DNA of 64,000 bases from Bacteroidia bacterium (GTDB lineage Bacteria; Bacteroidota; Bacteroidia; Flavobacteriales; Flavobacteriaceae), in the NCBI GenBank assembly GCA_030428705.1, contig JAUIDI010000001.1, forward strand, positions 372,001 to 436,000. Reading direction: 5' to 3'. Positions 33,408-48,199 of the stretch are shown here, one piece after another (positions within the stretch are counted from its first letter, which is position 1; each line of letters opens with the position of its first letter). Made by a program: the position numbers and the translations under genes. The notes under the pieces were generated by a model, which worked only from the letters and a program-made list of their open reading frames with translations, did not search any database and was not told where the DNA came from.

Positions 33408-35462
<2,055 letters not shown>

Positions 35463-38369: not shown

Positions 38370-39683
38370 ATGAGCGAAATCGGATTAAAAAAAGCCCTGA
38401 GTCCGTTAATGTTATGGGGCCTCGGTGTGGGTTATGTGATTTCGGGCATGTATTTTGGATGGAACCTGGGCTTGGCCGAAGGTGGTACCTATGGTCTGGC
38501 CATCGCGACCGTCTTTATCATTATCATGTATGTCACTTTTACCTTTAGCTATACCGAGATGGCTTGTGCCATTCCAAAAGCTGGAGGTGCCTTTGAATAC
38601 GCCAATCGGGGGCTGGGCAAGCATTTGGGCTTTGTCGCGGGAATCGCCCAGAACATCGAATTCATTTTTGCCCCGCCGGCCATAGCGGCGGCAATCGGGG
38701 CGTATTTGAATCTCGTATACCCGGCAATCGATCTAATGGTTTTTGCCATCGGTGCGTATTTGATTTTTACCGTAATCAACATTCTAGGGGTCAAACTGGC
38801 TGCCTCCTTTGAATTGGTCGTTACCGTTTTGGCGGTTATCGAACTCTTGATTTTTGCCGGGGTGACTTTGCCCGAATTTGAATTGGCCAACTTAAAGATG
38901 AACCCTTTACCGAATGGTTTTCAGGGGGTATTCGCGGCGATTCCCTTTGCAATTTGGTTCTTTTTGGCCATCGAAGGGGTGGCAAATGTGGCCGAGGAAG
39001 CCATTAATCCACAACGAAGTATTTTGATCGGTTTCGGATCGGCCATTTTGACCTTGGTCGTTTTATGTATTTTGACGTTTACATCGGCTGTAGGGGTTGC
39101 AGGCTGGGAAGCAGTGGTTTACCCCGAAGGCAGTGATGTGGCTTCCGACTCGCCATTGCCGTTGGCACTATCGCAAGTGGTCGATAGCGGACATTTTTTA
39201 TATAAACTGTTGGTCGGTATCGGATTATTAGGTTTAATCGCGTCTTTTCATGGAATTATCCTTGCCGGTGGTCGGGCCACTTTCGAGTTCGGCCGAAGGG
39301 GTTATGCCCCCAATTATTTGGGTAAGGTACAGCCGAGGTTTAGAACACCTACGAACGCATTGATCTTCAATACCTTGATCGGTATCGTGGCCTTGTTCAC
39401 AGGAGCGACAGGAGAAATCATAACCATTGCATGTTTCGGGGCATTGGCCTTGTACATCGTTTCGATGTTTTCTTTCTTCGCCCTTCGAAAAAAAGAACCT
39501 GCGATGGAGCGACCTTTTAAAGTGCCGATGTTTCCTGTTTTTCCGATGACGGCTTTGATCATCGCTTCTATCGCCTTAATCGCGATGGCGTATTACAATC
39601 CGATGTTGGCCGCCATATTCTTTGGTATTGTGGCGATTTCCTATTTGTATTTCCTCCTCTTTCTAAATAAAAAAATGCAGTAA
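38370..39683 (+). CDS. Ethanolamine permease-type APC transporter
   Basis: A 437-residue amino acid/polyamine/organocation superfamily transporter with about 12 membrane helices. The sequence is the ethanolamine permease pattern (SPLMLWGLGVGYVISGMYFG, NLGLAEGGTYGLAIATVF, IPKAGGAFEYANRGLGKHLG, FAPPAIAAAIGAYLN). It would import ethanolamine, or a close relative such as propanolamine, from the medium or phospholipid turnover. It is the first gene of a six-gene same-strand run, 8 bp before the ligase gene. The gene context supports the substrate call. Confidence 0.9.
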   Translation: MSEIGLKKALSPLMLWGLGVGYVISGMYFGWNLGLAEGGTYGLAIATVFIIIMYVTFTFSYTEMACAIPKAGGAFEYANRGLGKHLGFVAGIAQNIEFIFAPPAIAAAIGAYLNLVYPAIDLMVFAIGAYLIFTVINILGVKLAASFELVVTVLAVIELLIFAGVTLPEFELANLKMNPLPNGFQGVFAAIPFAIWFFLAIEGVANVAEEAINPQRSILIGFGSAILTLVVLCILTFTSAVGVAGWEAVVYPEGSDVASDSPLPLALSQVVDSGHFLYKLLVGIGLLGLIASFHGIILAGGRATFEFGRRGYAPNYLGKVQPRFRTPTNALIFNTLIGIVALFTGATGEIITIACFGALALYIVSMFSFFALRKKEPAMERPFKVPMFPVFPMTALIIASIALIAMAYYNPMLAAIFFGIVAISYLYFLLFLNKKMQ

Positions 39684-39691
39684 CTTTCGGT

Positions 39692-41050
39692 ATGGATAAG
39701 AACGAGATTATCAAAAAAGTAAAGGAAAGCAAACATTCCAAGGTAAAGGTCGCTATTGTCGATATCGATGGCGTGTTGCGCGGTAAGTTCATGCATCGCG
39801 ACAAATTGCTCTCGGCTTTGGAAAACGGATTCGGATTTTGCTCCGTGGTCTTTGGTTGGGACATGGGCGATGTTTCCTATACGAACGATGTAAAGGTTAC
39901 GGGTTGGCACACGGGCTATGATGATTTTGAGGCGCGAATCGATATAAATACGTTTCGAACCGTTCCATGGGAAGATGACGTTCCTTTTTTTCTGGTGGAT
40001 TTTGAAAAGGATAATGCCGAAGATTTGGCCGTATGCCCGCGAAGTTTACTTAAAAAAGTTATTGCCGAAGCTGAGGAAATGGGATTTGCCCCTATGTTCT
40101 CACAAGAATTCGAATGGTTCAATTACCGCGAGACTTCCGATTCCCTAAAGGAAAAGAACTATCAAGACCCGCAACCTTTGACACCCGGAATGTTCGGTTA
40201 CTCGATTTTGAGGATGTCGGAGAACTCCGAATATTTCAATGACCTCTTCAGTTTATTGGAAGCTTTTGACGTACCCTTGGAGGGCCTGCATACCGAAACG
40301 GGGCCGGGGGTTACCGAAGCCGCCATTCAATACAGCGATATTTTGGAAGCCGCTGACCGTGCCGTTCTCTTTAAAACGGCTGTTAAGGAAATCGCCTATC
40401 GCCATGGTATCATCGCTAGTTTTATGGCAAAACAGACGAGTGCGCTTCCGGGTTGTGGGGGACACATCCATCAAAGTCTTTGGGATCCAAAAAAGAAGGA
40501 CAACCTTTTTTATGATGAAAAGTCCGAGGACCGTATGAGCGGCACTATGAAGCACTTTTTGGCCGGGCAATTGAAATGTCTGCCCGAGATATTGCCGATG
40601 TTCGCACCGACCGTAAATAGCTTTAAAAGATTGGTTGTAGGGGCTTGGGCACCGATAAACCAGACTTGGGGCCATGATAACAGAACGTGTTCGCTACGTG
40701 TGTTGGCATCCGGTAAAAAATCGACCCGGATCGAACATCGCGTTGTAGGTTCCGATGTGAATCCGTATTTGGCGATGGCGGCTTGCTTGGCAAGCGGACT
40801 TTATGGAATCAAGAATAAATTGAAGCTGGATATTGCCGAGACCAAGGCCAATGGTTATGAAGTCAAAAAGGGAATATTGCCTTCGAATCTGTGGGAAGCT
40901 TCCCAAAAAATGAAAAATTCCAAAAACGCTAAGCAACTTTTTGGTGACGAGTTTGTCGATCATTTTACAAAAACACGCGAGTGGGAGTGGAAACAATTTT
41001 CAACAGAAGTAACCGATTGGGAAACCAAACGCTATTTTGAAATCATTTAA
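39692..41050 (+). CDS. Glutamine-synthetase-like gamma-glutamyl ligase (putative gamma-glutamylethanolamide synthetase)
   Basis: A 452-residue GS-superfamily ligase. Metal-site glutamates are in MFSQEFEWF and HTETGPGVTEAAIQ. The ATP loop is GCGGHIHQSLWD (canonical GSGMHCHQS), the substrate arginine region is NSFKRLVVGAWAP, and TRIEHRVVGSDVNPYLAMA closes the site. The C-terminus (TDWETKRYFEII) is that of PuuA/FluG-type ligases rather than housekeeping GS. Family logic: it joins glutamate to an amine, here most likely ethanolamine, at ATP cost. It is 8 bp after the permease. Real glutamine synthetase cannot be ruled out by sequence alone, but the motif changes argue against it. Confidence 0.85.
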   Translation: MDKNEIIKKVKESKHSKVKVAIVDIDGVLRGKFMHRDKLLSALENGFGFCSVVFGWDMGDVSYTNDVKVTGWHTGYDDFEARIDINTFRTVPWEDDVPFFLVDFEKDNAEDLAVCPRSLLKKVIAEAEEMGFAPMFSQEFEWFNYRETSDSLKEKNYQDPQPLTPGMFGYSILRMSENSEYFNDLFSLLEAFDVPLEGLHTETGPGVTEAAIQYSDILEAADRAVLFKTAVKEIAYRHGIIASFMAKQTSALPGCGGHIHQSLWDPKKKDNLFYDEKSEDRMSGTMKHFLAGQLKCLPEILPMFAPTVNSFKRLVVGAWAPINQTWGHDNRTCSLRVLASGKKSTRIEHRVVGSDVNPYLAMAACLASGLYGIKNKLKLDIAETKANGYEVKKGILPSNLWEASQKMKNSKNAKQLFGDEFVDHFTKTREWEWKQFSTEVTDWETKRYFEII

Positions 41051-41073
41051 GAAAATTCTCCTTTGGTTGGAAT

Positions 41074-41096
41074 GTCACGCTGAGCTTGTCGAAGCG
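41074..41096. repeat. Short dispersed repeat inside the ethanolamine-type operon
   Basis: GTCACGCTGAGCTTGTCGAA followed by GCG includes the small hairpin GCTT-GTCG-AAGC. I recall this as a dispersed flavobacterial element. It lies in the only long gap (91 bp) of the cluster, between ligase and alcohol dehydrogenase genes. Confidence 0.55.
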
Positions 41097-41141
41097 CTAT
41101 CCAAATGGTATTATTAAATCTGATTAGACGATAAATATTAA

Positions 41142-42290
41142 ATGGACGTATCTAAAATTCATGGATTCAATTTCCCTTGCCCAATCCGGTTCGGGGCAGG
41201 GGCAAGCAAAGAACTGGCCGATTATTTGAAGGATAACAAGCTGTCGAGACCACTTTTGGTTACGGACGGAACGGTGGCCGAATTACCCTTTTTTAAGGAA
41301 ATAAAGAACGATTTACAACAAAAAGGATTCAGCGTTGAGGTCTTTGACAAAATGCACAAAAACCCCATAAAGTCTGATGCTTTACAGGGTGGGGACGCCT
41401 TTCATGAAACGGGTCGCGATTGTATCGTGGGTATCGGTGGCGGGGTGGCCCTCGACGTGGCACGCGCCATTGTTCTTCGCGTCAATCACAAAAGAGATCT
41501 GTTCGATTATGACGATTTGATCGGGGGCGATAAATATGTCACCGAAGACGTTCCTCATTTTGTAACGATTCCTACGACAGCGGGTACGGGAAGCGAGGTC
41601 GGACGAAGTGCCATAATTTCGGAAGATGAATCAAAAAAGAAACGTATACTTTTCAGTCCGAAATTGATGGCGAGAATGGTCTTCGCCGATCCCTTGTTGA
41701 CCATGGAATTGCCTCCGTTTATTACCGCGGCTACCGGAATGGATGCATTGACACACAATATGGAAGCCTATTTGGCCAAGAATTTTCATCCTATGTGCGA
41801 TGGAATCGCTTTGGAGGGAATCGCATTGATTGCTGATTCTCTGGAGACCGCGACGCATCGCCCCGATGTGGAGTCACGTGCTAAAATGTTGTTGGCTTCG
41901 CTGATGGGTGCCGTTGCCTTTCAAAAAGGATTGGGCGTGGTACACAGTTTGGCGCATCCGTTATCGAGTTTGTTGGATACCCACCACGGATTGGCCAATG
42001 CGGTCAACCTGCCCTATGGAATGCAATTCAATTACGAAGGCTTTGAAACTCGTTTCGATAAAATGGCCGATGCCTTTGGGCTATTAAAAAAGAACGGCAA
42101 TAGGGTAGTGGACCATCTTTTCGAAATGAACGACAAACTTGGGCTGCCGACCAAACTTTCCGCAATCGGTGTGGAAGCCGGACATATTGAAGAGCTTTCC
42201 GAACTTGCCGAAGCCGATTTTTGCCATCCCAATAATCCGAAACCGGTTACTAGAGCGGACTTTAAAAACCTTTATGAAAAAGCCCTATGA
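41142..42290 (+). CDS. Iron-containing alcohol dehydrogenase
   Basis: A 382-residue group III (Fe-ADH) dehydrogenase. It has the NAD-binding GIGGGVALDVARAI and PTTAGTGSEVGRSA segments. Metal ligands D and H lie in TGMDALTHNMEAYLA and two further histidines in VHSLAHPLSSLLDTHHGLAN. It oxidises a primary alcohol to the aldehyde or the reverse. In this cluster the expected substrate is gamma-glutamylethanolamide or free ethanolamine-derived alcohol. The ATG at 41142 begins MDVSKIHGFNFPCPIRFGAG. The hydrolase gene overlaps its stop by 4 bases. Confidence 0.93.
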   Translation: MDVSKIHGFNFPCPIRFGAGASKELADYLKDNKLSRPLLVTDGTVAELPFFKEIKNDLQQKGFSVEVFDKMHKNPIKSDALQGGDAFHETGRDCIVGIGGGVALDVARAIVLRVNHKRDLFDYDDLIGGDKYVTEDVPHFVTIPTTAGTGSEVGRSAIISEDESKKKRILFSPKLMARMVFADPLLTMELPPFITAATGMDALTHNMEAYLAKNFHPMCDGIALEGIALIADSLETATHRPDVESRAKMLLASLMGAVAFQKGLGVVHSLAHPLSSLLDTHHGLANAVNLPYGMQFNYEGFETRFDKMADAFGLLKKNGNRVVDHLFEMNDKLGLPTKLSAIGVEAGHIEELSELAEADFCHPNNPKPVTRADFKNLYEKAL

Positions 42291-43024
42291 TCAAGATCGG
42301 AATTTCCGCTTGCTTTTTATATCCCGATAAAGAGCGGATCGTCTTTGGCCCTAAATCGTTGACCTACATCGAGAATGATATGGCGAATTACTTGACAAAA
42401 AAAGGAGTGTTGCCCATTTTGATTCCCGATGTAAAAGACGAATTACTGGTCGATATCCTCTCCGAAATGGATGGGTTCGTTTTTCAGGGTGGGGTCGATC
42501 TAGCCCCCGAAACTTATGGAGAGCAACCCATCGGAAGATGGAAAGGCGATGCGTACCGAGATCGGTACGAAATGAAAATTTTGGATTTCGCCATTAAAAA
42601 CTCAAAACCGGTACTGGGCATTTGTCGCGGATTGCAATTGATGAACGTTTATTTTGGCGGCACGTTATATCAAGATACGGCAACACAAAATCCGAGTGCG
42701 GATGAACATCGTTCGGCGGAGTTGTACGATACCATCAAGCACCCCATAACGTTTGTCAAAGGCACTTTTTTGGCGCATTTGTATTCGGAAGATAAAAACC
42801 CTAACGTGAATACCGTCCATCATCAAGCGGTCAAAGATCTAGGCATAGATTTAGAAGTCTACGCAAAGGCACCCGACGGAATCATAGAAGCTTTCGGGTA
42901 CTCAAAGGAGCCTGATGGCAAGGTGATGGGCGTACAATGGCATCCCGAATTTTCCCATACCTTGGGCAATGAGGTTATTGATGCCGATAGACTTTATGAA
43001 GCTTTTTTAGAACATGTGAAATAA
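42287..43024 (+). CDS. Gamma-glutamyl hydrolase of the PuuD type (class I glutamine amidotransferase fold)
   Basis: A 245-residue protein with the GATase1 fold. The nucleophile cysteine is in GICRGLQLMNVYFGG, the catalytic histidine in VQWHPEF, and FVFQGGVDLAPETYG precedes them, as in PuuD, which cleaves gamma-glutamyl-GABA. In this cluster it would split gamma-glutamylglycine into glutamate and glycine, regenerating the glutamate used by the ligase. It overlaps the dehydrogenase stop (ATGA) and is followed 5 bp later by the aldehyde dehydrogenase. Confidence 0.92.
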   Translation: MIKIGISACFLYPDKERIVFGPKSLTYIENDMANYLTKKGVLPILIPDVKDELLVDILSEMDGFVFQGGVDLAPETYGEQPIGRWKGDAYRDRYEMKILDFAIKNSKPVLGICRGLQLMNVYFGGTLYQDTATQNPSADEHRSAELYDTIKHPITFVKGTFLAHLYSEDKNPNVNTVHHQAVKDLGIDLEVYAKAPDGIIEAFGYSKEPDGKVMGVQWHPEFSHTLGNEVIDADRLYEAFLEHVK

Positions 43025-43029
43025 ATAAA

Positions 43030-44394
43030 ATGCAAATAGTAAATCCGGCTACCGAGGAAGTCATAGCAGAATTAAAGGAAACATCAAAGGATGAATGGTC
43101 CAAAGTTATGGAATCGTTGCGTAAAGGCCAACGCCCATGGGGCCTTAAACCTGTACAAGAGCGTCTCGGATGCATCGTTCGGTTTGGGGAACTGATTCAA
43201 GAAAATATAGACGAATTGGCCGAAATTATGACTTCTGAGACGGGCAAACCGTTACAGCAATCGCTTAATGAGATTAAAGGTGCTCAAAATCGGATCGAAC
43301 ATTTACGACAAAATGCCGAAAAATGGTTGACCTCCGAAACCTTGGTCGATTCGGGAAGTACCCATGAAAAAATTGTTTACGAACCCCTTGGGGTAATCGC
43401 CAATATTTCGGCCTGGAACTTTCCGTACAATGTTGGATACAATGTTTTTCTGTATGCTTTGGTAGCCGGAAATGCAGTTGTATACAAACCTTCGGAATTT
43501 GCTTCCTTGACGGGAAAGCAGTTTGAAAAATATTTGTGGCAAGCGGGAATTCCTGAAAACGTATTTCAATGTGTTGTCGGCGATGGAAGTTTGGGCCAAC
43601 AAATTCTTGAAGCCGATCTGGACGGTTACTTCTTTACGGGATCCCATGCCACAGGTTTGCATATTGCCAAGGCGGTGGCACACAAATTGGTTCCGGTTCA
43701 ACTGGAATTGGGCGGTAAAGACCCGCTTTACGTTATGGATGATGTAGCCGACATAAAACAAGCGGCTATTAACGCTGCGGAAGGAGCATTTTACAATAAT
43801 GGACAAAGTTGTTGTGCCGTAGAACGCATTTATGTTTCGGATAAAATTTATAAGGAATTCGTCGATGCTTTTGTCAAGGAAGTAAAATCGTATAAAATCG
43901 GGGATCCAATGGATTTGGAAACTTTTGTAGGACCGTTGACCCGAAAACAACAACTACAGGTTTTAAGAGAACAGGTCACCGATGCAAAAGCCAAGGGAGC
44001 AACTTTATTATTGGGAGGACATGAAAAGGAAGGTAAAGGATATTATTTTGAACCTACGGTATTGTCCGATTGCACGCATGAAATGGAGGTTATGAAAGCG
44101 GAATCTTTCGGACCGATTATTGGTATTCAAAAAGTGACTTCGGATTCGGAGGCCTTGCAATTGATGGCCGATACGGATTACGGATTGACAGCCGCCGTAT
44201 TCTCAAATAACGAACAACGGGCGTTACAGTTGTTAAATGAATTGAATGTCGGTACGGCATACTGGAATTGTTGTGACCGTGTAAGCCCAAATGTTCCGTG
44301 GTCGGGCAGAAAAAATTCCGGATTGGGATCGACACTTTCGGCCCAGGGCATTCGCGCCTTTGTACAGCCAAAATCGTATCATTTAAGACCTTGA
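43030..44394 (+). CDS. NAD(P)-dependent aldehyde dehydrogenase
   Basis: A 454-residue aldehyde dehydrogenase superfamily member, slightly shorter than the usual 480-500. The catalytic glutamate is in QLELGGKDPLY and the nucleophile in NNGQSCCAVERIYV. SAWNFPYNVGYNVFLYALVAGNAVVYKPSE is the cofactor loop and GPIIGIQKV the late motif. It would oxidise the aldehyde made by the Fe-ADH to the acid. Start ATG 43030 gives MQIVNPATEEVIAEL. It is tightly spaced (5 bp) after the hydrolase and 3 bp before the small protein gene. Confidence 0.93.
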   Translation: MQIVNPATEEVIAELKETSKDEWSKVMESLRKGQRPWGLKPVQERLGCIVRFGELIQENIDELAEIMTSETGKPLQQSLNEIKGAQNRIEHLRQNAEKWLTSETLVDSGSTHEKIVYEPLGVIANISAWNFPYNVGYNVFLYALVAGNAVVYKPSEFASLTGKQFEKYLWQAGIPENVFQCVVGDGSLGQQILEADLDGYFFTGSHATGLHIAKAVAHKLVPVQLELGGKDPLYVMDDVADIKQAAINAAEGAFYNNGQSCCAVERIYVSDKIYKEFVDAFVKEVKSYKIGDPMDLETFVGPLTRKQQLQVLREQVTDAKAKGATLLLGGHEKEGKGYYFEPTVLSDCTHEMEVMKAESFGPIIGIQKVTSDSEALQLMADTDYGLTAAVFSNNEQRALQLLNELNVGTAYWNCCDRVSPNVPWSGRKNSGLGSTLSAQGIRAFVQPKSYHLRP

Positions 44395-44397
44395 TTT

Positions 44398-44700
44398 ATG
44401 GAGCTTCCCAAGAATTATTCCGAATTTCAAGAATCGCTATCCGAGCAAAAACCTTACAATAGCTGGCCCGAAGGCTTAAAAGCTCTGTGGTACGATGCAA
44501 AAGGTGATTGGGAAGCCTCACATGACATTGTCCAAGAAATGCATGGTAATCTAGGTAGTTGGATCCATGCCTATCTGCACCGAAAGGAAGGCGATGAATT
44601 CAATGCAGGGTATTGGTATAAAATGGCTCGAAAGCCTTTTCCTGAAAAAAATTTAGAGGTAGAACATAAAGAAATTGTATTAGCAATTTTGGGCAAGTGA
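44398..44700 (+). CDS. Conserved small protein of the ethanolamine-type cluster
   Basis: A 100-residue cytoplasmic protein, no signal peptide. The conserved core is GLKALWYDAKGDWEASHDIV followed by GSWIHAYLHRKEGDEFNAGYWY, a helical repeat-like pattern. I recall relatives in other phyla as hypothetical proteins. It is 3 bp after the aldehyde dehydrogenase, so it belongs to the operon. A truncated copy lies at 45518-45691 and shares 43 identical bases (44557-44599 with 45548-45590). The C-terminal 20 residues differ from that copy. Confidence 0.75.
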   Translation: MELPKNYSEFQESLSEQKPYNSWPEGLKALWYDAKGDWEASHDIVQEMHGNLGSWIHAYLHRKEGDEFNAGYWYKMARKPFPEKNLEVEHKEIVLAILGK

Positions 44701-44704
44701 AATT

Positions 44705-45355
44705 TTAATTGCTCAATGATTTTCTTCCATTCAAAATGTTTTTTAATTCGATAATTTCGGTTTTGTTGGGAAATTCATCCGCAAGTTTCTCCAGCGTATA
44801 ACTGGCCGCTTCACAATTTTTGCCTTCGTACGAACACGAATAAATATATGCAAGAGATAATCTGTAGTTGACGTCAAATTCTTTTGGAAAAAGTTTAAGT
44901 GCCTCCGAATATTGAAATATTGCATTGTGCCAATGCTTATCTCTAATATATCTGTCACCATCATTAATGAAGTATAAATAATCCGATTCCTTTTTCTCCA
45001 GGCTGTTATTAAACATATCGGATTTTGAATAAGAAGGATACGGGTAAATAGAACCTTGACTTAATAAATCATACCCAAATTTGACAATAAAACTGATTAT
45101 TACTAATGCCACGAAGAATGCCAGTATAAAATTTCTTTGGTCTTTTTTTCTATTTTCCAATACAGTCCTGCGCACTTCTCTTAGTTGATGAGGTGTAGCT
45201 TTTTTTAACTCTACCTTTCCAGCTGAAGCTTTATAATACTCTTTTTTGGTATTTAGGTAAGTAGATTCCTTTTTAAACATACTTTTTCTTCGTAACATTT
45301 GTGAGTTGTTTCGAAGACTAATAATCATGCCCGCTATGCTGCCTCCCCCAGCCAT
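44705..45355 (-). CDS. TPR-containing membrane protein with MAGGGSI N-terminus
   Basis: A 216-residue protein: a basic N-terminus (MAGGGSIAGMIISLRNNSQM, MFKKESTYLNTKKEYYKA), one membrane helix (about 76-98, FILAFFVALVIISFIVKFGY) and a tetratricopeptide-type region (about 130-190, NDGDRYIRDKHWHNAIFQYSEALKLFP). I recall similar flavobacterial proteins as hypothetical and sometimes multicopy. It lies between a gene and its truncated duplicate and is on the other strand, so it looks like an arrival after the duplication. Function unknown. Confidence 0.7.
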   Translation of the reverse strand: MAGGGSIAGMIISLRNNSQMLRRKSMFKKESTYLNTKKEYYKASAGKVELKKATPHQLREVRRTVLENRKKDQRNFILAFFVALVIISFIVKFGYDLLSQGSIYPYPSYSKSDMFNNSLEKKESDYLYFINDGDRYIRDKHWHNAIFQYSEALKLFPKEFDVNYRLSLAYIYSCSYEGKNCEAASYTLEKLADEFPNKTEIIELKNILNGRKSLSN

Positions 45356-45468: not shown

Positions 45469-45519
45469 TTATATAAAGGTCTGCTTATTTTTAGAAACCG
45501 TATTTTGATATTTATAAAT
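45469..45519 (-). pseudogene. Remnant of the 3' end of a NIPSNAP gene copy
   Basis: Read on the minus strand this stretch translates as IYKYQNTVSKNKQTFI and a stop. The intact NIPSNAP gene at 45685-46464 ends MPKYQNTVSRNEQTFLYP. Eleven of 14 aligned residues from KYQ onward are identical and the other three are conservative. The stop comes at TAA 45471-45469. The upstream part of this copy is missing and is replaced by the truncated small-protein copy. Confidence 0.8.
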
Positions 45520-45691
45520 TGCCCAAGAAATGCATAGTACTCTCGGCAGTTGGATCCATGCCTATCTGCACCGAAAGGAAGGCGATGAATGGAACGCCGG
45601 CTATTGGTATCGCAGGGCCGGAAAGCCTTTTCCGAAAACTACTTTGGAACAAGAGCTTAAAGAACTGGTCGAATTTGTTCTATATCAATAA
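45518..45691 (+). pseudogene. 5'-truncated duplicate of the cluster's small protein gene
   Basis: In frame the segment reads IAQEMHSTLGSWIHAYLHRK through EGDEWNAGYWYRRAGKPFP to ELVEFVLYQ and a TAA at 45689-45691. It matches residues from about 46 onward of the protein at 44398-44700. An in-frame TAA at 45515-45517 stops upstream extension, so only a 53-codon frame from ATG 45530 remains. Its end overlaps the NIPSNAP gene end by 7 bases. It is either a relic or a very small C-terminal-only protein. Confidence 0.8.
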
Positions 45692-46477: not shown

Positions 46478-47389
46478 TTAAACTATTATTCGGGTTCCGT
46501 TAGCGGATATGTTCTTTGCAGAGTCGAAATAAAAATCGACACGGCCTAAATTAATTCCAAAACAGCCAACTTGGTTGACGAGTACTTCTTTGCCGACCTG
46601 ATTTTTTATCAAGGTCGGTCTTTCCAAAAAAGTATGGGTATGGCCACCGATGATCAAGTCGGTATATTCGGTCTTGGCCGCCAATTTTAGGTCACTGGGC
46701 TTATCTTCGTTCTGATATTCGTAACCGATATGAGACAGACAGATTATAAGGTCACATTTTTCTTCGGTTTTAAGTATGCGCTCCATATCTTGAGCTACGG
46801 GGTAAGGATGTACGTATTTGGTTTCTTTGAACAATGACTCCGAAACCAACCCCTTTAATTGAATGCCAAGCCCATAAACACCCACTTTAATGCCATCCAC
46901 GAAATAGGTTTCCCATGGTTTTACATGTCCTTCCATTAATGTATTCGTGAAATCGTAGTTGGCCGCAAGTAATTTGAATTTGGCATGTGGTAATTGGGCC
47001 GCTAATCCTTCTACTCCGTTGTCGAAATCATGGTTTCCGATGGTGGCCGCATCGTATTTCAATTTACTCATTAACTTGAATTCGAGCTCGCCGCCATAAA
47101 AATTAAAGTAAGGTGTGCCTTGAAAAATATCCCCGGCATCGAAAAGCAAGGTATTCGGATTTTCCTGACGTATACTTTCTACAAGACTGGCCCTACGTGC
47201 CAAGCCACCGAGGTTCGCGAATTGGGAGTGGTCCTTGGGAAAGGGGTCGATATGACTGTGCACGTCGTTCGTGTGCAGAATCGTGATTTTTTTGACTGTC
47301 TCCCGATGGCAGGAAGTAACGGACAACCCTCCCAGGCCGATAAATAGGGAGGCTGTCGAGGTACGATCCAAAAAAGTCCTTCTATCCAT
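46478..47389 (-). CDS. 5'-nucleotidase-type metallophosphatase (N-terminal domain protein)
   Basis: A 303-residue calcineurin-like phosphoesterase, the catalytic half of the UshA/5'-nucleotidase family. Export signal MDRRTFLDRTSTASLFIGL with a lipobox-like SVTSC, then the metal motifs LHTNDVHSHIDPF, LFDAGDIFQGTPYF, IGNHDFDNG, LSHIGYEY and IIGGHTHTFLE. A full UshA also has a C-terminal substrate domain; here it is a separate gene directly upstream, with no gap between them. The two together should act on extracytoplasmic nucleotides or sugar nucleotides. Confidence 0.92.
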   Translation of the reverse strand: MDRRTFLDRTSTASLFIGLGGLSVTSCHRETVKKITILHTNDVHSHIDPFPKDHSQFANLGGLARRASLVESIRQENPNTLLFDAGDIFQGTPYFNFYGGELEFKLMSKLKYDAATIGNHDFDNGVEGLAAQLPHAKFKLLAANYDFTNTLMEGHVKPWETYFVDGIKVGVYGLGIQLKGLVSESLFKETKYVHPYPVAQDMERILKTEEKCDLIICLSHIGYEYQNEDKPSDLKLAAKTEYTDLIIGGHTHTFLERPTLIKNQVGKEVLVNQVGCFGINLGRVDFYFDSAKNISANGTRIIV

Positions 47390-48145
47390 TTATATTGCGA
47401 GTTTATAGAAACGGTCGTCAATCTTGGGTGCAATCGTGTCAACCTTTTTAAAATGATCGATCATGGCATTTCGTATCAAGTAATCGGTATCGGTGATGCC
47501 GACAGTTTCTTTAAAAAAACCCATGTTATCGCCTCCCGTAACAAGATAGTTGGAAGTCGCTACATGATAGGTGCGTTCTTTATCCAAAGGTTTGCCCTGT
47601 ATTTTGAACGATTTTAAAGAACCGTCTTTATTCAATACGATCTGCATACCTGAAATCGGATGCGCCCTTTTTGAGTTCATTAGATATTCCACGAGTTTTT
47701 TGACCGATTTCCCGGTCAGGTCCACAACCACAATCGTATTTTCAAAAGGCATTACCTCAAAAGCCGTTCTGGCCGATACCTTTCCTTTCGAAATGATCGA
47801 TCGAATACCGCCATGGTTCAATAGCACAAAATCCAATTCATTGCCGGTTCTTGCCTTGTAAATGGGGGCGGCAGCTTCAAAGACAATATCCGCCATTAAA
47901 TTGCCGGCCGTTGTGTTGTACTCACCGTCATCCTTGGTAATCATACTTGGTGCATACGCAAGGGCACTATCCAAGACTTCATTGATACGATTATGGTAGG
48001 GCAGTATAAATCCTTCAATAGAATCGTTGGTGGCCAAGGTACTGTCGATTCTCAATTGATGGGCTTCGATTTCCGTCAAGGCGCCTGGACTTTGTTTGCA
48101 GGAACAAAATCCAATAAATGTTATAATTATAACAAAATGTTTCAT
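47390..48145 (-). CDS. 5'-nucleotidase C-terminal domain lipoprotein
   Basis: A 251-residue lipoprotein (MKHFVIIITFIGFCSC signal, lipobox FCSC) that consists only of the 5'-nucleotidase substrate-binding domain. Visible are TTAGNLMADIV, LNHGGIRSIISKGKVSARTAFEVMPFENTI and the aromatic-binding segment VATSNYLVTGGDNMGFF. It is the first gene of a two-gene unit, ending exactly where the catalytic-domain gene begins. An in-frame ATG four codons upstream (48157) gives a poorer signal peptide. Together the pair is a split UshA-like enzyme. Confidence 0.9.
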   Translation of the reverse strand: MKHFVIIITFIGFCSCKQSPGALTEIEAHQLRIDSTLATNDSIEGFILPYHNRINEVLDSALAYAPSMITKDDGEYNTTAGNLMADIVFEAAAPIYKARTGNELDFVLLNHGGIRSIISKGKVSARTAFEVMPFENTIVVVDLTGKSVKKLVEYLMNSKRAHPISGMQIVLNKDGSLKSFKIQGKPLDKERTYHVATSNYLVTGGDNMGFFKETVGITDTDYLIRNAMIDHFKKVDTIAPKIDDRFYKLAI

Positions 48146-48199
48146 TTTTAAAATCAATCTACTTTTTATCTTAGCCGCAGATTGCAGAGGGATATTCTT

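Follow-up and report, generated by a model that had tools for sequence, protein, structure and literature searches.

A predicted gamma-glutamylation operon for ethanolamine in a member of the Flavobacteriaceae

Ethanolamine is the headgroup of a major membrane lipid. How might a bacterium that carries an ethanolamine permease gene use this compound when no gene for the EutB lyase is recognised in its genome? The question is raised by a locus in the window, by which we mean the whole stretch of 64,000 nucleotides analysed here (Bacteroidia bacterium, Flavobacteriaceae; assembly GCA_030428705.1, contig JAUIDI010000001.1, positions 372,001 to 436,000). Profile searches of the assembly gave zero matches to EutB (PF06751) and zero to the BMC shell protein (PF00936), which bore out for the whole assembly what the initial annotation had read from the window on EutB and shell proteins. 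Six tandem open reading frames were located on the + strand at 38370-44700 of the window, with gaps of 8 bp, 91 bp, a 4-bp overlap, 5 bp and 3 bp; the same values had been given in the initial annotation and were returned by the ORF listing. The features are as follows.

38370..39683, + strand: eat, APC-type ethanolamine permease, 437 aa (TIGR00908); first in the conserved order
39692..41050, + strand: glutamine synthetase (GS)-like amine-glutamate ligase, predicted gamma-glutamylethanolamide synthetase, 452 aa (PF00120, site residues, own clade)
41142..42290, + strand: Fe-containing alcohol dehydrogenase (Fe-ADH), predicted gamma-glutamylethanolamide dehydrogenase, 382 aa (PF00465/PF25137)
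42287..43024, + strand: Peptidase C26 / class I GATase hydrolase, predicted gamma-glutamylglycine hydrolase, 245 aa (PF07722, 185 bits)
43030..44394, + strand: aldehyde dehydrogenase (ALDH), predicted gamma-glutamyl-aminoacetaldehyde dehydrogenase, 454 aa (PF00171, 437 bits)
44398..44700, + strand: 100-aa helical protein without Pfam or NCBIfam family; adjacent only, judged outside the pathway
45518..45682, + strand: codons 44-98 of a second, remnant copy of the 100-aa gene (39/55 residues identical to the full copy)

No EpuRI- or RpiR-type regulator was recognised beside the operon from open reading frames and family matches. A scan for Bacteroidota-type promoters upstream of eat gave no perfect site, the best having two mismatches. 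A 16-base repeat in the gap between the ligase and Fe-ADH genes has three copies genome-wide, all forward. When the three repeat loci were aligned over their first 200 bases, which need not contain the motif, no shared element of greater length emerged.

The permease scored 453.2 bits against the TIGR00908 ethanolamine permease equivalog (curated cut-off 381.75), so that its assignment as an ethanolamine importer, proposed earlier, is supported by profile. The hydrolase and the ALDH retain their catalytic residues. D201, H205, H268 and H282 of the Fe-ADH were near-invariant among relatives. In the hydrolase, described earlier as PuuD-like with catalytic C and H, the PF07722 match was accompanied by C113 (56/56 aligned matches), H219 and E221 (both 55/55). 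In the ALDH, C261 and E226 were found in 65/65 and N130 in 66/66 aligned matches. The hydrolase and ALDH frames were fused in four relative loci (L059, L060, L080 and L150; Pfam analysis was done on L060), and this predicted fusion is a new point here.

The ligase matched Gln-synt_C (PF00120) with 334 bits. Its scores stayed under the cut-offs of the GlnA equivalog (240 bits, cut-off 429) and of gamma-glutamylputrescine synthetase (PuuA, NF045547; 227 bits, cut-off 650). The GS metal ligands and active-site residues R321, R339, R344, R355 and R359 are kept. All three ammonium-site positions are replaced (D50 by T64, Y179 by F168, E327 by W319), in agreement with the GS-like ligase named in the initial annotation; such replacement has been reported for GlnA4 and PauA7. 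The residues fit ligation of an amine rather than of ammonia. Two observations count against the pathway reading: the glutamate-site residue N264 of GS is P253 in the ligase, and 27 of the 36 cluster-group relatives retain D at the D50 position. This group (eat-ADH-hydrolase-ALDH) includes L034, L059 and L060, with no eat in the stretch, and the contig-cut L040. By score, tree and residues the ligase lies far from E. coli GlnA and did not group with this housekeeping enzyme.

The ligases linked to eat formed a clade of their own, with support of 93 in tree 1, 99/96 in tree 2 and 85/83 in tree 3, which had fewer rows. The window ligase was placed outside the Eto-operon clade (Paracoccus L192, PDB 5dm3), from which a 100/100 branch separated it in tree 3, and outside the clade of IpuC (gamma-glutamylisopropylamide synthetase), being 37-38% identical to two annotated ipuC products. 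As judged from sequence, the clade is thus distinct from both, and this is a new point here; we know of no characterised member. Ligase rows longer than 480 aa were trimmed to the last 470 residues in tree 1 and in the trees reusing its rows. Trees 2 and 3 did not include E. coli GlnA, Shinella L191 or L106, and tree 3 also lacked PuuA. Tree 1 counted L076 and L071 in a group of ligases linked to a 347-aa protein and a HAD phosphatase, although the 347-aa gene was seen beside neither (L071 is contig-cut); in tree 2, L076 was relabelled unknown and L071 omitted.

That group comprises the nearest relatives of the ligase in the phylum sample. All 33 non-cluster ligase matches of the phylum sample adjoin the 347-aa and HAD genes instead of the cluster, so the ligase family alone is not diagnostic of ethanolamine. 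A permease over the cut-off was absent from 28 of the 33 genomes with these closest relatives outside the operon. The active-site letters that were checked are much alike in the two groups. A profile search of the PDB with the 347-aa family gave nothing credible. Its predicted model had matches to kinase-like folds, which are only a lead because confidence in the model is low (pLDDT 54).

The order eat / GS-like ligase / Fe-ADH / C26 hydrolase / ALDH was observed in 28 of 58 related loci, or 29 of 58 if L025, with a split ADH frame, is counted. It was also found in 5 of 7 other ligase matches of the window's family and in 7 of 40 other matches of the phylum sample. Thus synteny across relatives, on which the initial annotation had made its proposal depend, is present, and its recurrence across many genera is beyond chance. 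The 58 loci are those retrieved with six peptide patterns and do not make up a complete set. Because several records are present in duplicate (among them L026/L100, L029/L102, L032/L103 and L033/L104), counts of the 58-locus, family and phylum samples should not be summed. In 10 of the 58 loci eat lies beside the ligase gene and the ADH, hydrolase and ALDH genes do not follow directly: one is the split-frame L025, L054 and L066 carry the three genes further off, and the stretches examined for L037, L046-L049, L056 and L069, some of them ended by the contig, did not show these genes. In L034 and L060 all four enzyme genes are present, and eat was not seen in the stretch examined.

The genomic company of the permease gives the substrate assignment its context. 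Permease carriers made up 20 of 395 sampled phylum genomes: 8 had the five-gene cluster, 8 had EutB (adjoining the permease in 7), 2 had an operon of GS, short-chain dehydrogenase (SDR), ALDH and amidotransferase, and 2 (L236 and L237) had neither, with no recognised partner enzyme set. Cluster and EutB occurred together in 0 of these 20 carriers (chance of zero overlap 0.004, uncorrected for kinship). EutB was likewise found in 0 of 13 cluster-bearing genomes and in 0 of 2 genomes with a 48%-identical ligase. EutB together with EutC beside the permease was confirmed by profile in the one locus checked. The permeases of L234 and L235 are 69 and 72% identical to that of the window and adjoin GS-SDR-ALDH-GATase operons of the published type, whose GS fell within the Eto clade (support 100/100). 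The EutB-linked permeases are just 44-50% identical to the window permease, which makes the argument from alternation looser on that part.

Taken together, we put at roughly 0.83 the probability that the five genes form an operon for ethanolamine catabolism, supplying nitrogen and carbon, without a microcompartment or a B12-dependent lyase. Ligase, ADH, ALDH and hydrolase, the enzyme set named in the initial annotation, were by family all found in this one operon. The individual reactions, the order in which they occur and the amine substrate itself are all inferred, ethanolamine being assigned from context. Eat would bring ethanolamine into the cell. The GS-like ligase would use ATP to join it to the gamma-carboxyl of glutamate, giving gamma-glutamylethanolamide, whose alcohol the Fe-ADH would oxidise to gamma-glutamyl-aminoacetaldehyde. 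The ALDH would convert the aldehyde to gamma-glutamylglycine, and the C26 hydrolase would split this into glycine and glutamate, so that glutamate would be recycled. The operon apparently takes the place of the usual vitamin B12 route.

Although the ligase carries the PF00120 domain, the chance that it is an ordinary ammonia-dependent glutamine synthetase lying by accident near dehydrogenase genes is practically negligible, given its score under the GlnA cut-off, the replaced ammonium site, the conserved five-gene order and two other PF00120 matches elsewhere in the genome (frames of 729 and 344 aa). It is highly improbable that the ligase has some other role, common to its 347-aa/HAD-linked relatives, and that the operon does not serve ethanolamine catabolism. 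The different conserved operon of those relatives, their mostly permease-free genomes and the similar active sites would agree with such a role. However, the eat-linked ligases form their own clade with a conserved set for two oxidations and a hydrolysis, and the more distant ligases of Legionella lytica and Photobacterium likewise have ALDH, Fe-ADH and a GATase-like gene. The same chemistry might also act mainly on another short amino alcohol (1-amino-2-propanol, alaninol or 3-aminopropanol) or on several. The TIGR00908 cut-off belongs to an annotation model and not to an assay, and other amines are the annotated substrates of related GS-like ligases (ipuC). We nonetheless consider this unlikely, since the permease family alternates between this operon, EutB/EutC, which by family is an ethanolamine lyase, and an operon with an Eto-clade GS.

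The 100-aa protein had been included as a sixth member of the pathway, and it could be imagined as a scaffold for the enzymes. Its gene starts 3 bp behind the ALDH gene and was found in 4 of 6 genera with an orthologous ligase versus 15 of 143 without (149 genera; Fisher p 0.0025, uncorrected for kinship). Those 15 genera (in one the match is partial, and another has a 48% ligase) argue against a pathway function, as does its position, at the cut-off used, beside just 3 of 28 full clusters (L024, L026 and L072). The gene occupies a backbone site, beside a ligA-like gene, a nucleotidase-like pair, or both, in 10 of 13 stretches from other genomes. On this synteny, and despite the genome-level association, the sixth gene was dropped from the pathway; it is more likely a chromosomal neighbour, and a working role in the pathway is very unlikely. 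The protein matched no Pfam or NCBIfam family. Its predicted model has six helices (pLDDT 94.7), with no Foldseek match at E <= 0.001, and the best PDB sequence match had only E 0.048. The remnant copy matches the 3' portion of the L024 gene at 157 of 167 bases.

The pathway chemistry is already published for Streptomyces, Chromohalobacter and Phaeobacter. The paper on the Streptomyces coelicolor GlnA4 pathway (PMC6529630) describes a GS-like ligase, an aldehyde dehydrogenase and a hydrolase without eut genes, and an ethanolamine transporter gene in some strains, comparable to eat. Its figure legend calls the hydrolase a glutamine amidotransferase, and its text assigns it to the formylglutamate amidohydrolase family. 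D50 and E327 are replaced in GlnA4 as well, E327 by F and not by W, and the pathway differs in its short-chain dehydrogenase and EpuRI regulator. The parallel drawn earlier with this pathway therefore holds for the chemistry. The window ligase lies outside the Eto/5dm3 and IpuC clades, and the first oxidising enzyme would be an Fe-ADH instead of the SDR of Streptomyces. The Eto operon of Phaeobacter sp. MED193 (PMC10132767) has the same four enzyme functions but a TRAP importer and an RpiR regulator; it is described there as close to the operons of Chromohalobacter salexigens and Agrobacterium (citing Vetting et al. 2015). Paracoccus denitrificans L192, ordered like the Eto operon, has an Fe-ADH (38% identical to that of the window), whereas its ligase is of the other clade (34% identical) and a PF05013 N-formylglutamate-amidohydrolase-type gene replaces C26. 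In plasmid operons of Legionella lytica and Photobacterium (L086 and L097), ligases 46-48% identical and within the wider clade of the window ligase precede ALDH, Fe-ADH and a GATase-like gene. Their order is gs-aldh-adh-amidotransferase, eat was not seen in the stretch, and the L097 amidotransferase matches PF00117, not C26. The E. coli Puu putrescine pathway (puuA/D/C) shares by annotation the logic of ligase, oxidation, ALDH and gamma-glutamyl hydrolase, but PuuB is a gamma-glutamylputrescine oxidase, the stretch has no alcohol dehydrogenase and the ligase is 29% identical. The EutBC route uses the same permease family in other Bacteroidota, and differs in its lyase chemistry, B12-dependent according to the literature.

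The route had been called little described in Bacteroidota, and no such paper was among the matches listed in our literature searches; ethanolamine use by Flavobacterium is mentioned in the literature, including PMC6529630. An ocean survey of ethanolamine use tracked the TRAP importer EtoX, and about 94% of its matches were Alphaproteobacteria (PMC10132767). A Bacteroidota route that relied on a different importer would be missed by this marker.

The separate ligase clade makes the pathway look assembled more than once. It is somewhat more probable than the contrary that ethanolamine gamma-glutamylation arose independently at least twice, and that Bacteroidota recruited a ligase clade of the GS/kinase-like/HAD operon, together with an Fe-ADH and a C26 hydrolase, behind a permease family otherwise serving EutBC or an Eto/GlnA4-type operon. 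Three interchangeable modules would then fill one metabolic slot. Their alternation behind one permease family would serve as a natural experiment on the circumstances in which a lyase-based pathway gives way to another, and substrate prediction for GS-like enzymes can be tested on the uncharacterised ligase clade.

The cluster occupies 38370-44700 of the window and consists of six tandem ORFs on the + strand, separated by 8, 91, -4, 5 and 3 bp. They are, in order:

ORF 1, ethanolamine permease (eat)
ORF 2, GS-like ligase (gs)
ORF 3, Fe-ADH (adh)
ORF 4, Peptidase C26 hydrolase (hyd)
ORF 5, aldehyde dehydrogenase (aldh)
ORF 6, 100-aa protein without a family

The permease passed the cut-off of the NCBIfam equivalog TIGR00908 (ethanolamine permease) with 453 bits against 382. 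The ligase contained the GS catalytic domain, scored 240 against a cut-off of 429 for GlnA and lay far below that for gamma-glutamylputrescine synthetase (227 of 650). Two further PF00120 matches in the assembly, frames of 729 and 344 aa, are taken by us as the housekeeping GSIII and GSII. No match to EutB or BMC was found in this assembly (4.16 Mb, 99.99% complete). The closest relative found was L024, a stretch from a Flavobacteriaceae bacterium, with a ligase identity of 93%. The gs-adh gap contains GCTGAGCTTGTCGAAG (41079-41094), which was absent from 100 shuffles of the window and has three copies in the genome, each on the forward strand of its contig.

In an alignment with E. coli GlnA, the window ligase retained metal ligands E139, E141, E202, E209, H258 and E348, along with the arginines at R321, R339, R344, R355 and R359. 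Substitutions relative to GlnA were D50 to T64, Y179 to F168, E327 to W319 and N264 to P253, the last affecting a glutamate-site residue. Cluster-group ligases carried W in the E327 column and F in the Y179 column in 36/36 rows; since D was retained at D50 in 27 of the 36, the D50 change alone is not diagnostic. The replacement of both D50 and E327 is shared with GlnA4 (F331) and PauA7 (W296), for which the loss is described in PMC6529630. In the hydrolase, C113 was present in 56/56 and H219 and E221 in 55/55 aligned matches, and in the ALDH, C261 and E226 in 65/65 and N130 in 66/66. The ADH residues D201, H205, H268 and H282, presumably the metal site, were near-invariant among relatives.

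Six ligase peptide patterns, scanned against one genome per species (84,980 species), yielded 58 loci. A scripted count placed eat-gs-adh-hyd-aldh in order on one strand in 28 of them, with carriers including Maribacter, Kriegella, Sinomicrobium, Membranihabitans, Flavihumibacter, Parapedobacter, Pedobacter and one Bacteriovoracaceae MAG. Of the other loci, 6 had the last four genes without eat, 2 were cut short, 10 had eat beside gs only and 12 had neither. Four of the 6 (L059, L075, L077, L080) were at or near contig starts, and no eat was seen within the stretch examined in L034 and L060. Missing genes, all or some, were located farther off in L054 and L066 of the 10 and in L036 of the 12. 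In L025, also one of the 10, the cluster is complete except that its ADH frame is split (L025:9446-10589, Maribacter halichondriae), by either a real change or a sequencing error. The stretches L037, L046-L049 and L054 showed eat-gs pairs without adh-hyd-aldh directly downstream; upstream of eat were a conserved protein of ~160 aa and, on the minus strand, an aldehyde dehydrogenase with 27-31% identity to the window ALDH.

Within the window's family (149 genomes, one per genus; E <= 1e-100), the ligase was found in 8 genomes. Six were orthologues (68-100% identity), and the five genes were present with all 6/6 (window counted). The two ligases at 48%, in L105 and L106, lacked the five-gene order. 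L106 has genes for a 347-aa protein and a HAD protein. L105 has eat-gs-aldh-adh plus a GATase, and its permease (356 bits) is under the TIGR00908 cut-off; this alternative arrangement (L105:6110-12436) includes a GS of the proteobacterial-like branch. In the phylum sample, the ligase was present in 41/395 genomes and the five-gene order in 8 (window counted).

The same 395 genomes were searched for permease and EutB. A permease above the cut-off was found in 20 and EutB in 12. The 20 permeases were accompanied by the cluster in 8 genomes (G000, G179, G237, G270, G293, G305, G442, G532), by EutB in 8 (G245, G356, G391, G395, G505, G512, G528, G535), by both in none and by neither in 4; the chance of zero overlap was 0.004, a value that ignores shared ancestry. 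A separate check found EutB in 0/13 cluster genomes and 0/2 genomes with the 48% ligase. EutB and the permease shared a strand and were no more than about 700 bp apart in 7/8 genomes, and lay on separate contigs in G512; one profile-checked locus read permease, then EutB and EutC. The EutB-linked permeases were 44-50% identical to that of the window and thus represent a more distant subfamily. G210 and G301 (stretches L234 and L235) carried GS-SDR-ALDH-GATase-eat (families checked in L234). Their permeases showed 69 and 72% identity to that of the window, and their GS was placed with the Eto operon ligases (support 100/100). No recognised partner of the TIGR00908 permease was found in G332 and G357 (stretches L236 and L237), where it had neither EutB nor a recognised GS module alongside. 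Four of the 12 EutB genomes (G218, G208, G276, G333) were without a permease above the cut-off, so EutB does not need one. Taken with the families, the conserved order and the permease cut-off, this substitution of partners bears out the initial annotation in reading the five genes as a probable ethanolamine gamma-glutamylation pathway.

Four loci carry the hydrolase and ALDH in one open frame of 691-699 aa (C26 + ALDH, Pfam-checked in L060):

L060:10597-12678
L059:3389-5464
L080:1433-3511
L150

Such a fusion fits the ALDH product being the hydrolase's substrate. Cluster hydrolases of Chitinophagaceae and Sphingobacteriaceae were 30-39% identical to the window's, and the C26 family was confirmed in all three tested (L050, L044, L060). 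In a Paracoccus stretch, by contrast, a PF05013 enzyme replaces the C26 hydrolase.

The 100-aa gene had been counted as a sixth pathway member. It occurs in 19/149 family genomes (one match partial) and is enriched with the orthologous ligase (4/6 vs 15/143 genomes, p 0.0025, uncorrected), as a pathway gene might be. However, among 13 stretches from other genomes, 8 had it downstream of a ligA-like gene and 8 had it upstream of the gene pair seen at window 46478-48157; 6 showed both neighbours and 3 (L108, L111, L119) neither. One or both thus stood alongside in 10/13, and membership of the pathway is probably wrong. The labels ligA-like, and nucleotidase-like for the gene pair, were read from the sequences. 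The surroundings in the window are:

33459-35462, ligA-like gene, upstream of the cluster
44705-45355, minus strand, ORF with no Pfam family, after the 100-aa gene with its alternative 3' half
45518-45682, remnant duplicating the second half of the 100-aa gene
46478-48157, gene pair, downstream of the cluster

With the ligA-like gene upstream and the gene pair downstream, the cluster seems to be set into this block. The remnant was identical to the L024 gene at 157/167 bases, and the full window gene agreed with L024 at 113 of 130 bases at its start and at 121 of the 170 that follow. As the remnant is closer to L024 than the 3' part of the full gene, the gene probably received an inserted segment comprising an alternative 3' half and the 44705-45355 ORF. 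The insertion looks to have occurred at about codon 43 with the gene end restored, the remnant being the displaced original 3' half. The 100-aa protein was predicted to form six confident helices, and its model gave no significant fold match.

Ligase trees of 87, 55 and 27 sequences gave the same clades. The window ligase fell in a Bacteroidota-dominated clade adjoining a mostly proteobacterial group (Legionella lytica, Photobacterium, Burkholderia, Rhizobium, Rhodobacteraceae, Paracoccus versutus, plus L105). The Legionella and Photobacterium genes neighbour ALDH, Fe-ADH and a GATase-like gene; other members of the group have different neighbours, e.g. GMC oxidoreductase or aminotransferase. 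The eat-linked ligases formed a clade with support 99/96 in the 55-ligase tree (27 rows, one of unknown context), 93 in the 87-ligase tree and 85/83 in the 27-ligase tree. The Eto clade comprised Paracoccus denitrificans (L192), Aminobacter (L193), PDB 5dm3 and 11zs, and Thermomicrobium, the last accompanied by an annotated ethanolamine permease; we take 5dm3 to be the C. salexigens enzyme beside an ethanolamine-binding protein. Both the Eto and IpuC clades were separate from that of the window ligase. The parallel drawn initially with known ethanolamine ligases therefore holds in kind and, as far as tested, fails in descent. Independent recruitment of the ligase for ethanolamine gamma-glutamylation is inferred rather than proven, as the trees were rooted on single long-branch rows (GlnA, PuuA) or at the midpoint.

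All 33/33 phylum-sample genomes with the ligase outside the cluster had a 347-aa protein and a HAD hydrolase downstream on the same strand. This GS-347aa-HAD operon, with a ligase of the same protein family as the window ligase, is found at:

L062:5272-8779
L167
33 phylum-sample loci

Ligases adjoining the 347-aa and HAD genes were scattered around the eat-linked clade in the 87- and 55-ligase trees and weakly formed one group in the 27-ligase tree (75/49). The HAD protein tested was of the HAD-IIA kind. The 347-aa family had no Pfam match (two members) or NCBIfam match (one tested). Its low-confidence model (pLDDT 54) gave Foldseek matches to amicoumacin kinase (best E 5e-5), homoserine kinase (1e-3) and aminopropanol kinase (4e-3), weakly suggesting an APH-kinase-like fold. 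A TIGR00908 permease above the cut-off was present in 5/33 of these genomes, all five with EutB; EutB was found in 0/8 others tested. G333, also one of the 33, had EutB and no permease above the cut-off.

Krysenko et al. 2019 (PMC6529630) demonstrated that GlnA4 acts on ethanolamine and put forward the subsequent steps as a proposal, an account given again in a 2022 review (PMC9397018); both mention ethanolamine use by Flavobacterium in passing. For Phaeobacter sp. MED193, PMC10132767 reports that five operon proteins were more abundant on phosphorylethanolamine and that EtoX binds ethanolamine with a Kd of about 8 uM; for C. salexigens and Agrobacterium it refers to Vetting et al. No Bacteroidota operon of this kind was found among the matches listed in the open-licence PMC literature, which is weak evidence of absence. 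Judged from sequence, the predicted gamma-glutamylation operon is a variant of known ethanolamine chemistry that would differ, as far as tested, in the descent of its ligase.
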